Shown: one piece after another, positions 31,566 to 47,039 of the stretch | Numbering within the stretch: the first letter of the stretch is position 1 | How the letters are laid out: each line of letters opens with the position of its first letter | NCBI GenBank assembly: GCA_014379585.1 | Contig: JACMLN010000034.1 | Coordinates: 1-47,573 of the forward strand | Length of the DNA stretch: 47,573 nucleotides | Direction of reading: 5' to 3' | Source: Gloeobacterales cyanobacterium ES-bin-313 | Lineage (GTDB): Bacteria > Cyanobacteriota > Cyanobacteriia > Gloeobacterales > Gloeobacteraceae | The notes under the pieces: model-generated | What the model was told of the DNA's origin: nothing | Databases searched by the model: none | Seen by the model: only the letters and a program-made list of their open reading frames with translations | Translations under genes and position numbers: made by a program

Positions 31566-31586
31566 AGATATATGCAGTATTCTATT

Positions 31587-31900
31587 TTGGTGAAAGCGAG
31601 AAATATAGCGAACGGCACCAAAGGGAAGGGGCAGGCCCCTCCCTCTGGACTCCCACCCCGTGGGGGGACAGAAGCCTGTCCCCCCACACCCCCCTCGGCA
31701 ATTGAGTGGCTTGATGCTGAGTGATGCTCGGTTGCGCAGACTTTTTGTCACGTTGCGGACGGGTGCGCAACGACCCAAATCTGTGGACTGGTGGCACGGT
31801 GGGCATAACGCTGCGCGTTCCAGGCTCATGGCGCTACGCGTGGTGGAGCAGAATTGGAGGGGGATTGGGGGAGGTTTGGGTGACCAATGGGAGACGCATT
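31587..31900 (-). repeat. Dispersed hairpin-rich repeat, copy A (reverse orientation)
   Basis: This ~300-bp block is the reverse complement of blocks at about 32690-32999 (copy B) and 46717-47019 (copy C), at high identity over most of its length. It carries a perfect 12-bp hairpin at 31660-31671/31676-31687, a second GGGAAGGGGC/GCCCCTCCC hairpin, and a CGTTGCG/CGCAACG stem. Short frames within it are not genes. The right boundary is fuzzy. It fills most of the gap between the polysaccharide cluster and the lipoprotein gene. Confidence 0.85.
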
Positions 31901-31923
31901 GGGTTTTTATGCCCCAGCCACTT

Positions 31924-31970
31924 ATTCCGATGACGAATTAGTATCACTCATTTCGATGATGAATCAGTAT
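31924..31970. repeat. Two degenerate 21-bp tandem units, 26-bp period
   Basis: Bases 31924-31944 and 31950-31970 differ at three of 21 positions, all C/T changes. They lie just upstream of the lipoprotein gene. Confidence 0.5.
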
Positions 31971-31999
31971 GATATTTGAGCTGCTAGGTGCAAAGATAC

Positions 32000-32548
32000 A
32001 TGCAGAAGAACATTGCACATCAATTCTTAATTCTGCTGTGCTTGCTGATCGTTGTTGGGTGTGGCGATCAAGGCCATCCAAAGGATGATCAAATGCTTGC
32101 CCAGTTTGCAAAACATCGGCTTGAGCTTGAGCAATTAATTCGCATGTTTAAGACTGACAAGGGGCTAGGTCGTGTTGGTTCAGGTTTCACGAGACCTGAC
32201 AACCCTACAATCATTGGTGTTTCTGCGGAGCGGATAGAGAAATATCGCCAACTGTGCTCAGTTGTAGGCGCGGTGAATTGCATTGAGGGGTATGATGCTA
32301 CTTACGATCGGCTATATGGATCTGTCAGTGAAGGCATAACTGAAGAAAAAGTCCCAATATGGATTCATATTTCTGCCAGGGGTCTCTCTATTTCAGGTTC
32401 AGGGAAAGGATTCTTCTATTCCGAAATGCCTCCAAAGTCTCCCTTTAAACTCGTTAAAGATCTAGACCGAATCTCTATCACTAGACCTGCTGGGACTTGG
32501 CTTCGGCACATTGAGGGGCCTTGGTATCTGTATTTCGATGCGATATAG
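32000..32548 (+). CDS. Putative lipoprotein of unknown function
   Basis: About 182 residues from ATG 32000; a GTG at 31988 would add four. The N-terminus is a lipoprotein signal: a positive start, a hydrophobic core FLILLCLLIVVG and a lipobox Cys (VVGC). The mature part begins with a charged helical stretch (DDQMLAQFAKHRLELEQLIRMFKTDKGLGRVG). This is followed by beta-rich sequence with TRPAGTWLRHIEGPWYLYFDA at the end. I do not recognise a family. One spot-checked line is about 40% GC, lower than the surrounding core genes. It stands alone between inverted repeat copies A and B, so it may be cargo of, or have been bracketed by, that repeat. Confidence 0.65.
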   Translation: MQKNIAHQFLILLCLLIVVGCGDQGHPKDDQMLAQFAKHRLELEQLIRMFKTDKGLGRVGSGFTRPDNPTIIGVSAERIEKYRQLCSVVGAVNCIEGYDATYDRLYGSVSEGITEEKVPIWIHISARGLSISGSGKGFFYSEMPPKSPFKLVKDLDRISITRPAGTWLRHIEGPWYLYFDAI

Positions 32549-32559
32549 GCAGTTGATAC

Positions 32560-32662
32560 TAAGTAGGTGACCTTAAATAAACCGAAGATCTTTCTGGAGA
32601 AACCCTCTTCCTGGCAGGATCCTAGGTCATGGATATTCAGGATTTTGAGGGTCACCTACTTA
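32560..32662. repeat. 103-bp element bounded by 13-bp perfect inverted repeats
   Basis: TAAGTAGGTGACC (32560-32572) is exactly complementary to GGTCACCTACTTA (32650-32662). No frame of significance lies inside. It could be a miniature inverted-repeat element or a long-range stem after the lipoprotein gene. Only one copy is seen in this window. Confidence 0.5.
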
Positions 32663-32689
32663 TGACAATCCCAGCGCGCTAGACCCATT

Positions 32690-32999
32690 GGATCCATTCC
32701 ATCGGCACCCAGATCTCCTCCAATCCGTCTCCAATTCCGCTCCACCACGCGTAGCGCCATGAGTCTGGGACGCGCAGCGTCATACCTACCGTGCCACCAG
32801 TCCACAGATTTGGGTCGTTGCGCACCCGTCCGCAACGTGACAAAAAGTCTGCGCAACCGAGCATCACTCAGCATCAAGCCACTAAAGTTGCCAAGGGGGT
32901 GTGGGGGACAGGCTTCTGTCCCCCACGGGGCGGGAGTCCAGAGGGAGGGGCTTGCCCCTTCCCTTTGGTGCCGTTCGCCATATTTAGCGCTTTCACCAA
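32690..32999 (+). repeat. Dispersed hairpin-rich repeat, copy B
   Basis: Direct-orientation copy, nearly identical to the reverse complement of copy A from the Pro-rich-looking CTCC tract to the end TTCACCAA. The central hairpin is 11 bp (32901-32911/32916-32926) with loop GCTT. Together with A it forms an inverted pair about 790 bp apart. It ends 22 bp before the stop of the first nucleotidyltransferase gene. Confidence 0.85.
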
Positions 33000-33021
33000 G
33001 AGCTTAGAAAGTCTATTCCTA

Positions 33022-33810
33022 TCAACCTGATGGTGCAATAGTATGGAAGCGCCCTAGACGAATGCGAAGCAGTAAGTCATTCAATGCTAATTTTCCCGAA
33101 GCCTGATTTGGCAAGTTGCTTTTTTGATGAGCGGCCTCTAATTTCTGACATAAACGCTCATATTCCGAAGCAAAAAAAGTAAGATCTCCTGATTTAAGCT
33201 GTGATTTTTCTGGGCTTGCTAACTTGAGAGCAATCAACTCATCGAGATAATGGAGCTGGAAAACTTGATTGAGTTGCAATAAATTCGCTTCGATCTCTCC
33301 AGTTTGCATCAGATAGATTCCTGTCAGCAGGACTCGAAAGACGTAGAGTAAAGGCTTGACTTTCTGCTCTTTCTCAAAGAATTTCCATTGCGTTTGTGCA
33401 AAGCCCAGATAGTGATGGCTGTGAAAACGAGTAATGCATTGTTTGGCAATGACTTTCAACTCGACATGTTCAGGTGTTGTTTGAAGGATAAGTGGTGAAT
33501 AGAGCTGCTCTAAAACATAGCCATTCTTTTTCAACAGTAGAGAAAAAAACTTATAAACATCGTGAGTGACAAGATCGATCTCCAAACCATCTTCAATGCC
33601 CATGGATTCAACCGTTTCTTGACCAACATCCAAACCAACGATGTCGTTCAAAGGTAAAATGTGTACACCTCTTAGATCATAGTCGGAGTCCGGCGAGGGA
33701 AAACCGTAGAGATGCGCACCGCTCAAGGTCGTAAAGAGCAGCGAAAAGGGATGTTTTTTAACGATCTCTTGAAGGCGCGGATCATTTAGATCGATCTGTA
33801 CAGAAGACAT
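33022..33810 (-). CDS. Nucleotidyltransferase of the YcgL-like (COG3541-type) family, short member
   Basis: About 262 residues from ATG 33810; the frame is open upstream but the extra residues overlap the divergent gene. The pol-beta-type catalytic motif is clear: LSGAHLYGFPSPDSDYDLRGV, with Ser30-Gly31 and the metal-binding Asp43 and Asp45. The third acid is probably Asp79 in LEIDLVTHDVYKFF. A helical C-terminal region (TRFHSHHYLGFAQTQWKFFEKEQKVKPLLYVFRVLLTGIYLMQTG) follows. Its substrate is unknown; relatives occur in bacteria and large phages. A spot-checked line is about 35% GC, well below the neighbours, which suggests transfer. It is divergent from a related gene. Confidence 0.8.
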   Translation of the reverse strand: MSSVQIDLNDPRLQEIVKKHPFSLLFTTLSGAHLYGFPSPDSDYDLRGVHILPLNDIVGLDVGQETVESMGIEDGLEIDLVTHDVYKFFSLLLKKNGYVLEQLYSPLILQTTPEHVELKVIAKQCITRFHSHHYLGFAQTQWKFFEKEQKVKPLLYVFRVLLTGIYLMQTGEIEANLLQLNQVFQLHYLDELIALKLASPEKSQLKSGDLTFFASEYERLCQKLEAAHQKSNLPNQASGKLALNDLLLRIRLGRFHTIAPSG

Positions 33811-33853
33811 GTTGGTTATGCTGGGGAAACTGAGTTTTAGCATAGCAACCCCC

Positions 33854-34954
33854 ATGGATCGTAGAACCGTCGAACAACGCACCATTCTCCTCAGTATTTC
33901 AGGCTCTCAAGCCTACCGCCTCAATACACCGACAAGCGATCAAGACTACAAAGGGGTCTGTGTCGGCCTCAAAAAGCATTACCTGGGCTTTGAAAAGTTT
34001 GATCAAAAAGATGGTGGTTGGACACAGGAGCCAGGTGAATTTGGCTTTTTGGACGGAGTGAAAGATATTGTGATCTACGAGTTGCGTAAATATATGCAAC
34101 TTGCTATCGAAAATAACCCCAATATTCTCGAACTTCTCTGGCAGGATCCTAAAGATTATCGCGTGATCACTCCAGTCGGCCAAAGATTGATCGATCACCG
34201 TCAAGCCTTCTTGTGCACAAAGGCGAAGCACAGTTTTAGTGGTTATGCGTTTGCCCAACTCAAGCGAATTGAAATGCACCGCAAATGGTTGCTCAATCCG
34301 GTCGAACAAGCACCAACTCCTGAAGAATTTGGCATTGTTGGTATCGAGCCAATGTCCAAAGAACAAATGAATGCCTTTCTTGAATTTCTCTATGTGATTA
34401 TTCAAGACCGCATCGCTTTTTCGGAGATCGAAGAAGAGTTTGCGACTTTCTTAGAACAGCGCGTCGATTTTAAGGGGGCGCTCAAACAGTATCCCCTAGA
34501 AGCCAATCTCTTAGGCTACGTGCAGAAACTCACCAAAAGTAGCGATAACTTTATCCATCTTTTGCACGCAACCCAAAACTATCAAACTGCGATGAAAGCC
34601 TACCAAAACTATCAGCATTGGAAGGCCAATCGCAATCCGATGCGTTCAGCTTTGGAAGCAAAAGTTGGCTACGATGCGAAACATGCGATGCACTGCCTAC
34701 GCCTGTTGCACATGGGCATCGAAATCCTTAAAGACGGGGTTGTGATTGTCAACCGCGAAAAAGCCGGTGATGCTCCACTGCTTCGCTCTGTACGCAACTG
34801 TGAGTATTCCTACGATCAGATCATCGCCATGGCCACAGAATCCCAAGCAGAACTCGAAAACCTCTATCGCACTTCTACACTGCCAAAAACAGTGGATCGC
34901 GCCGCTATGAGTGAACTTTGCGAAGAACTTGTCGAAATCCAAGGCTGGAATTGA
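33854..34954 (+). CDS. Nucleotidyltransferase of the YcgL-like (COG3541-type) family, long member
   Basis: About 366 residues from ATG 33854 (MDRRTVEQRTILLSISGSQAYRL); an ATG at 33809 would overlap the divergent gene. The catalytic pattern is SISGSQAYRLNTPTSDQDYKGV with Asp29 and Asp31, and the third acid is probably Asp71 (KDIVIYELRKYMQ). The following helical region contains GYAFAQLKRIEMHRKWLL and a conserved-looking YDAKHAMHCLRLLHMGIEIL, resembling the family's C-terminal helical domain. It is longer than its divergent partner by about 100 residues. The function is unknown; it is not a known toxin pair by sequence. Its stop is 21 bp from the convergent pyruvate kinase stop. Confidence 0.82.
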   Translation: MDRRTVEQRTILLSISGSQAYRLNTPTSDQDYKGVCVGLKKHYLGFEKFDQKDGGWTQEPGEFGFLDGVKDIVIYELRKYMQLAIENNPNILELLWQDPKDYRVITPVGQRLIDHRQAFLCTKAKHSFSGYAFAQLKRIEMHRKWLLNPVEQAPTPEEFGIVGIEPMSKEQMNAFLEFLYVIIQDRIAFSEIEEEFATFLEQRVDFKGALKQYPLEANLLGYVQKLTKSSDNFIHLLHATQNYQTAMKAYQNYQHWKANRNPMRSALEAKVGYDAKHAMHCLRLLHMGIEILKDGVVIVNREKAGDAPLLRSVRNCEYSYDQIIAMATESQAELENLYRTSTLPKTVDRAAMSELCEELVEIQGWN

Positions 34955-46610: not shown

Positions 46611-46716
46611 CGGTTCAACACCTGTGGTAGAGCCATTGTGCCATTTGCCGCAGTTAAAGGTGGTTTTTCAGTGTTCAAAGTGCATCTTTACCTGCGAGAC
46701 TCTCCACAGACTCTCT

Positions 46717-47019
46717 CCCAATGGCATCCAGGCCACTCCCGATCCCCCTCCAATTCCGCATCACCCCGCGAAGCGCCATGAGCCTGGGACGCGCAGCGTC
46801 ATACCTACCCTGCCACCAGTCCACAGATTTGGGTCGTTGCGCCTCCCCCCGCAACGTGGGCACAAGACCGCGTCACCAAGAAACACTAAGTAACAAGCCA
46901 CTAAAGTTGCCAAGGGGGTGTGGGGGACAGAAGCCTGTCCCCCACGGGGTGGGAGTCCAGAGGGAGGGGCTCGCCCCTTCCCTTTGGTGCCGTTCGCCAT
47001 ATTTATCGCAACTCACCAA
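46717..47019 (+). repeat. Dispersed hairpin-rich repeat, copy C
   Basis: Same orientation as copy B, with more divergence in the middle (about 46850-46895). The central hairpin is 11 bp (46920-46930/46935-46945) but its loop is AAGC, the reverse complement of copy B's loop. The CGTTGCG/CGCAACG stem is kept although the loop differs. It fills the gap between DUF1995 and trpD. Confidence 0.85.
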
Positions 47020-47039
47020 AAATTTCTAAAGCCCCCAAA

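Follow-up and report, generated by a model that had tools for sequence, protein, structure and literature searches.

Dispersed hairpin repeats of a Gloeobacterales cyanobacterium share a two-unit layout that recurs in many cyanobacteria and is apparently under selection for triple-stranded DNA folding

The stretch of DNA analyzed here (the window; 47,573 nucleotides of one contig of Gloeobacterales cyanobacterium ES-bin-313) carries three copies, A, B, and C, of one repeat of ~300-480 bp. The hairpin at the center of each copy is, with somewhat better than even probability, one of the two units of a portable DNA module that resides on MITE-like repeats and in which selection would keep a predicted triplex fold. 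The layout recurs in many cyanobacteria and, as judged from sequence comparison, looks to be under selection for triple-stranded DNA folding. In each unit, one strand presents a G-tract, a spacer of ~3-5 nt, a G-rich 5' arm, a loop, and a C-rich 3' arm. Once this strand is made single-stranded, whether through replication, transcription, or extrusion under supercoiling, its arms would pair and the tract would lie antiparallel along the purine arm through reverse Hoogsteen bonds (G.G:C, A.A:T, T.A:T). The product would be two consecutive intrastrand triplexes of the class I purine-motif type. Selection for such folding of the DNA would keep tract and arms in step, transposition supplied in trans would spread the repeats, and loop inversion and occasional hairpin-to-hairpin copying would be by-products of extrusion and strand switching.

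A full copy, oriented as B and C are, consists of imperfect inverted ends, a 103-nt block, G-tract 1, hairpin H1, G-tract 3, and hairpin H2 (Table 1). A sequence-only reading of the window had described perfect central hairpins with stems of 12, 11, and 11 bp and loops GCTT, GCTT, and AAGC in A, B, and C, respectively, the last loop being inverted; direct reading of the sequence bears this out. In the common orientation, H1 is GTGGGGGGACAG-GCTT-CTGTCCCCCCAC in A, GTGGGGGACAG-GCTT-CTGTCCCCCAC in B, and GTGGGGGACAG-AAGC-CTGTCCCCCAC in C, and the side stems CGTTGCG/CGCAACG and GGGAGGGGC/GCCCC are found in all three. The extra G-C pair in A is also real, accompanied by a sixth G in the preceding tract (31689-31694), and is a variant common to another genomic copy (L024) and not a unique event. 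Copy B folds better than its dinucleotide shuffles on both strands (z = -2.8 and -3.0). The inner block of ~103 nt belongs to the full-size form and is missing in the short-form copies (L054, L055, and L064-L067).

Table 1. Features of the three repeat copies in the window (strand refers to the common orientation)
Copy	Feature	Position	Strand	Remarks
A	Dispersed repeat (MITE-like)	31571-31952	-	Boundaries approximate
A	TIR-like end ATTCCGATGACGAATTAGTAT	near 31925-31945		
A	Hairpin H2 (CCAGAGGGAGGGGC..GCCCCTTCCCTTTGG)	31618-31648	-	
A	G-tract 3 (GGGGTGGGAG)	31650-31659	-	Near-mirror of H2 5' arm GAGGGAGGGG
A	Hairpin H1	31660-31687	-	12-bp stem, loop GCTT
A	G-tract 1, AGGGGGG (six G)	31689-31695	-	Mirrors H1 5' arm GGGGGGA
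B	Repeat	32699-33016	+	Boundaries approximate
B	Inner block, ~103 nt	32757-32860	+	Contains side stem CGTTGCG/CGCAACG; limits approximate
B	Covariance-model match R1	32886-32985	+	122 bits
B	G-tract 1, AGGGGG	32894-32899	+	Mirrors GGGGGA
B	Hairpin H1	32901-32926	+	11-bp stem, loop GCTT; hairpin of the sequence-only reading
B	G-tract 3 (GGGGCGGGAG)	32927-32936	+	
B	Hairpin H2	32938-32968	+	
C	Repeat	46714-47021	+	Boundaries approximate
C	G-tract 1, AGGGGG	46913-46918	+	
C	Hairpin H1	46920-46945	+	11-bp stem, inverted loop AAGC
C	G-tract 3 (GGGGTGGGAG)	46946-46955	+	
C	Hairpin H2	46957-46987	+	

Several other features lie close to these copies. At the end of copy A (31922-31976) the repeat's terminal sequence stands twice in tandem, once as ATTCCGATGACGAATTAGTAT and once as ATTTCGATGATGAATCAGTAT. 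Copies A and B flank, in opposite orientations, a 186-codon ORF (31988-32548) without a Pfam match, and the whole arrangement (31571-33016) resembles a composite element. Adjoining copy B is a second, unrelated palindromic element (32556-32664) with 31-bp imperfect inverted arms, TAAGTAGGTGACC../..GGTCACCTACTTA, and 41 nt in between. At 33022-34954 is a divergent, overlapping pair of ORFs that both match RlaP, an RNA repair nucleotidyltransferase (E-values 6e-49 and 5e-17).

The genomic copies that the sequence-only reading had proposed collecting do exist: BLAST returned 42 matches, confirming a repeat family, and a covariance model finds 98 scattered short repeats in the 4.26-Mb, 198-contig genome of the window (hereafter G000). 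The pattern GGGGACAG-N4-CTGTCCCC, allowing at most one mismatch, occurs at 52 places in G000 and its reversed form at none. Many contigs terminate within the repeat, as expected if it breaks the assembly. A DUF1995 protein suggests that the genome is cyanobacterial; scanning the contigs of named genomes for the exact pattern gave no match, and a scan with proteins gave no relative. BLAST for the repeat in 58 relatives gave no match, no Rfam family matches it in gathering-score or E-value searches, and a tRNA search found none; neither blastn against plasmid sequences nor an exact-pattern search of viral contigs yielded a copy. A search of the literature found no paper describing this repeat family.

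Pairing is kept as the sequence varies. In 34 distinct G000 copies, 98.6% of pair cells are standard, compared to 94.1% in shuffles, and 55 pair cells are altered on both sides, compared to 17.7 when shuffled; sliding the pairing partner reduces standard pairs to at most 65%. Most of this covariation resides in the side hairpin H2, in which 5 of 13 pairs have double changes and two further pairs vary as G-U/G-C; one of its seven variable stem pairs is seen as A-U, C-G, and U-A. In H1, on which the sequence-only reading had centered its argument, only one of nine pairs varies on both sides. In an unrelated genus (G137), three hairpins covary independently, with 7 double-change pairs compared to 3.2, and across genera there are 145 double-change cells compared to 39 in shuffles, in an alignment fitted to the model. 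Independent mutation of the arms, which would have counted against selection on structure, is seen neither in the 34 distinct copies nor in G137. The proposal of selection on structure is thus partly supported: pairing is retained genome-wide and across genera, but the inverted loop and the base pair added in A do not support selection, because palindromes flip and self-correct by strand switching.

The covariance model built from G000 copies detects the module in two other families, within other long repeats. A model built on all three families finds the two-hairpin module in 43 of 390 Cyanobacteriia genomes and 31 of 160 genera, many of them multicopy. The module lies mostly within longer repeats, and its flanks differ by genus. 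Read by eye, the consensus is GGAGGGGGTYT-GGGGGACG-loop-CGTCCCCCA..GGGGGTTT-GGGGG-loop-CCCCCAA. The exact four-tract pattern is present in 17 of 386 genomes of the phylum, while the reversed control is absent. One genome (G327) has a tandem array of single G5-TTT-G5-hairpin units with a 38-bp period (C1:1905428-1906010); its 19 pattern matches genome-wide are all on the same strand. A likeness of the G137 flanks to attC (GCCTAAC) was considered and dropped, as the second core site was not seen.

What points to a third strand is the G-tract: ahead of each hairpin it mirrors the 5' arm (permutation p<1e-4), and it covaries with both arms; this and the other permutation p-values given here are optimistic, as the copies are related by ancestry. 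In H2 of G137, 94 of 95 positions match in mirror at k=5, compared to 78.8 when permuted (p=5e-5, 11 unique forms), and a direct repeat of tract and arm is unsupported at k=6-7. In the 78 unique units of all genomes, mirror agreement at k=6 is 416 compared to 380 +/- 4, part of which reflects the difference between H1 and H2, and direct agreement is not significant. For H2 of G000 the mirror count at k=11 is 132 compared to 120 +/- 3 (p=2e-4, 14 unique forms), and in many copies this 11-nt mirror is exact; restricted to type 1 of G000, the same test does not reach significance (p=0.10 for 8 unique forms). Standard reverse-Hoogsteen triads number 51 compared to 43.8 (p=3e-4).

Individual variants show tract and arms changing together. 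In H2 of G137, an A moves in tract and 5' arm together, accompanied by a T in the C arm, giving CGAGGGG-TTT-GGGGAGC..GTCCCC, CGGGAGG-TTT-GGAGGGC..CCTCC, and CGGGGAG-TTT-GAGGGGC..CCCTC; comparable three-way variants are GAAGGGGG-TCT-GGGGGAAC..GTTCCCCC in G165 and GGAGG-TTT-GGAGG..CCTCC in G014. A six-G tract matches six G-C stem pairs both in copy A of the window and in one G137 copy (L105). One G000 type has C in both tract and arm; these C residues are in mirror positions, for which there is no standard triad. In the short form, the H2 variant GGGGTAGGGG-TTTCA-GGGGTAGGGG (L054, L066, and L067) is a direct and not a mirror repeat.

Both units, in the window and in other genomes, have the class I order of purine tract, purine arm, and pyrimidine arm on one strand. 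Mirrors made of standard triads, with no more than about one mismatch, occur in H1 (6 triads) and in most H2. Triad counts are short: H1 and most foreign units have 5-7, and H2 of G000 reaches ~10, interrupted once or twice. Two of the three spacer bases are able to pair in an extended hairpin and would need to open for a triplex to form.

The most conserved feature of the module is a set of four G5 runs, in which spacers of mostly 3 nt separate tract 1 from tract 2 and tract 3 from tract 4, as would also be expected if these runs on the G-rich strand formed a quadruplex to which the hairpins were secondary. This reading seems improbable to us: when A enters tract and arm together the C arm stays complementary, a change that costs quadruplex layers and that a quadruplex does not need, and the pairing of both hairpins covaries.

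The sequence-only reading had left the level of selection as DNA or RNA, and the mirroring of the 5' arm by the G-tract points to selection, and to DNA, as a triplex, over RNA. If the repeats were instead transcribed, as parts of 3' UTRs or as small RNAs, their stems could be terminators, RNase barriers, or processing sites, a role for which the Correia/NEMIS repeats of Neisseria are a model. RNAalifold favors one strand in two genera (-95.7 vs. -82.3 and -74.9 vs. -64.5), and on the G-rich strand G.U far exceeds A.C, with 23 vs. 0 in H2 of G000 and ratios of 26:3, 11:7, and 22:2 in H0, H1, and H2 of G137, respectively. Strand preference and G.U excess fit RNA, and so would they a triplex, in which G.U is expected to exceed A.C because a substitution in the purine arm would disrupt two sets of bonds, whereas C-to-T would disrupt a single set.

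Gene context can be read in part toward transcription as well. The G000 copies are intergenic, and by crude ORF calling 20 of 34 lie between convergent genes, 13 between co-directional genes, and one between divergent genes; of 47 copies from other genomes, 19, 23, and 5 are so placed. The copies therefore avoid the upstream space of divergent genes, in keeping with transcribed hairpins, but between co-directional genes their orientation is even (6 vs. 7 in G000; 12 vs. 11 elsewhere), the hairpins are not followed by a U-tract, Rfam holds no match, and the mirror symmetry would have no role in an RNA hairpin. According to PMC4666352 (citing its ref. 43), RNA does not form purine-motif triplexes. 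RNA is thus the less likely level of selection, given that report and the unbiased gene orientation, and RNA hairpins as the explanation of the module appear unlikely.

Loop inversion is recurrent. In G000, where the H1 loop variants on the other strand are AAGC, ATGC, ACTGC, ACACGC, and ACGCGC, copy C of the window is the only one with an inverted loop among 38 copies in which the loop was read; elsewhere, the loop of H1 is inverted in one copy of G576 (L191) and H2 in one of G529 (L187), and in one copy of G265 (L173) a flipped H2 stands in place of H1. To judge from these products, the hairpins probably extrude and their strands switch, and the inversion is a by-product of hairpin extrusion and no evidence of selection. 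Minute inversions in plastid DNA are similar: there, too, a near-perfect hairpin keeps its stem and has its loop turned around. The inversions described here differ in occurring on dispersed cyanobacterial repeats and in being joined by hairpin-to-hairpin replacement.

These traces of strand switching could suggest that mutation alone accounts for the family, with quasipalindromes corrected by strand switching and MITEs spreading in the absence of structural selection. Strand switching or templated repair explains the loop flips and could explain the agreement of arm with arm, but not mirror agreement: it yields complementary or direct copies, never mirror copies, and mirror agreement exceeds permutation in one genome. 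Nor is an excess of G.T over A.C on one strand expected of a mutational process. We therefore regard mutation alone as a poor candidate, and continue to favor selection on a predicted triplex fold.

The mobility of the module is best seen in the genus g126, whose species are 96-98% identical and in which the module lies within a 277-bp element with inverted ends GGGTGCATCTCA. G579 and G527 carry such an element at one site (L168), which is empty in G265, G540, G612, G270, and G529; G529 has its own nearby insertion, with a clean empty and occupied site and a perfect 9-bp target duplication, CTATGAAAA. Other g126 copies have duplications matching at 7-9 of 9 positions, and a few have none. The g126 element is a MITE that carries the module and transposes with 9-bp target duplications. 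Full copies in G000 have inverted, imperfect terminal repeats, ATACCGATTCGTC / ATACCGTTTCGTC, and no target duplication is found at their ends beyond a possible TA-like agreement within the ends; the window's copies thus look MITE-like, and their family may have spread by the transposition route seen in g126. No cognate transposase was found in G000 by TIR pattern, and none of five G579 stretches that were read holds a convincing autonomous IS with g126 ends.

Three further observations bear on these elements. In G265, four near-identical copies of the g126 element form a direct array with a period of 365 bp (C1:3872315-3873688). In G527, the flanks of one element site, as defined by comparison with L175 (G265) and L189 (G540), are divided between L179 and L181, either because copies have recombined or because the assembly was joined at the repeat. 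L228 (2468-2586) and L231 (263-599) hold shorter elements that end in GGGAGCATCTCA; their 9-bp duplications, TGTATTGTT and GTTTTCTTT, are perfect, and they probably represent another MITE with the same transposase.

As in bacterial MITEs generally, these repeats are short and intergenic, have inverted ends and no visible transposase gene, and in g126 have 9-bp duplications and are polymorphic between close species. They differ in that a conserved inner module is shared by repeat families with ends and flanks that vary from genus to genus, and in that the window's family has imperfect inverted ends and no clear target duplication. Dispersed, tagged, intergenic hairpins in many copies also recall REP elements moved by a RAYT (Y1 transposase), of which GTAG and CGTC families are known and which occur in cyanobacteria (PMC3733652); the G-tract would then be the recognition tag. 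We rejected this very improbable explanation after a Y1_Tnp search and reading of the G000 loci. Neither tag tetranucleotide is present, no Y1 transposase is linked, a Y1_Tnp gene is absent from G137 despite at least 29 copies there, and both Y1_Tnp loci of G000 are of the IS605 type with unrelated ends. Unlike REP elements, the units are direct and not head-to-head dimers, and the g126 unit, with its inverted ends and its 9-bp duplications of the double-strand type, does not resemble single-strand Y1 insertion.

The mirror symmetry is the geometry of purine-motif intrastrand DNA triplexes, known as PIT elements, and the ITxF survey of PIT/BoxC/TM_ECO by Holder et al. (2015) reported many G/C-rich motifs in cyanobacteria, with PIT elements abundant in some of them (PMC4666352). 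The stringent comparison in that survey used stems of at least 8 triads; triplex folding in vitro was shown for the E. coli motif TM_ECO only, in vivo footprinting of triplex motifs was inconclusive, and tests of function gave no clear indication of a role (PMC4666352). Like PIT/TM motifs, the module described here is intergenic, multicopy, G/C-rich, and without strand bias, and runs from mirror tract through 3-nt loop, purine arm, and loop to pyrimidine arm. TM_ECO is of class II, with the C arm first, has 9-nt stems, occurs singly or in inverted pairs, and was not found on mobile elements, whereas the present module has class I order, tandem units, tracts of 5-6 G, residence in MITEs, three-way covariation, and recurrent flips. 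Triplex elements as such are already known as PIT; new here is a G-tract that mirrors the 5' arm of its hairpin and covaries with both arms.

Three-way covariation across many genera would be an evolutionary signature that the three-stranded fold itself is selected, and the family offers hundreds of natural variants for the question of triplexes in living bacteria. It also links triplex motifs to transposition, a connection not seen in the E. coli study (PMC4666352), and constitutes a natural chromosomal record of hairpin inversion. More speculatively, and with considerable doubt, the tandem triplex module may be a DNA-structure cassette needed in the life cycle of several unrelated cyanobacterial MITE families, for example by stalling forks and thereby exposing or synapsing the ends, and selected as a three-stranded fold. 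If this is correct, it would be the first known case of a bacterial mobile element with a part maintained by three-way, triplex covariation.
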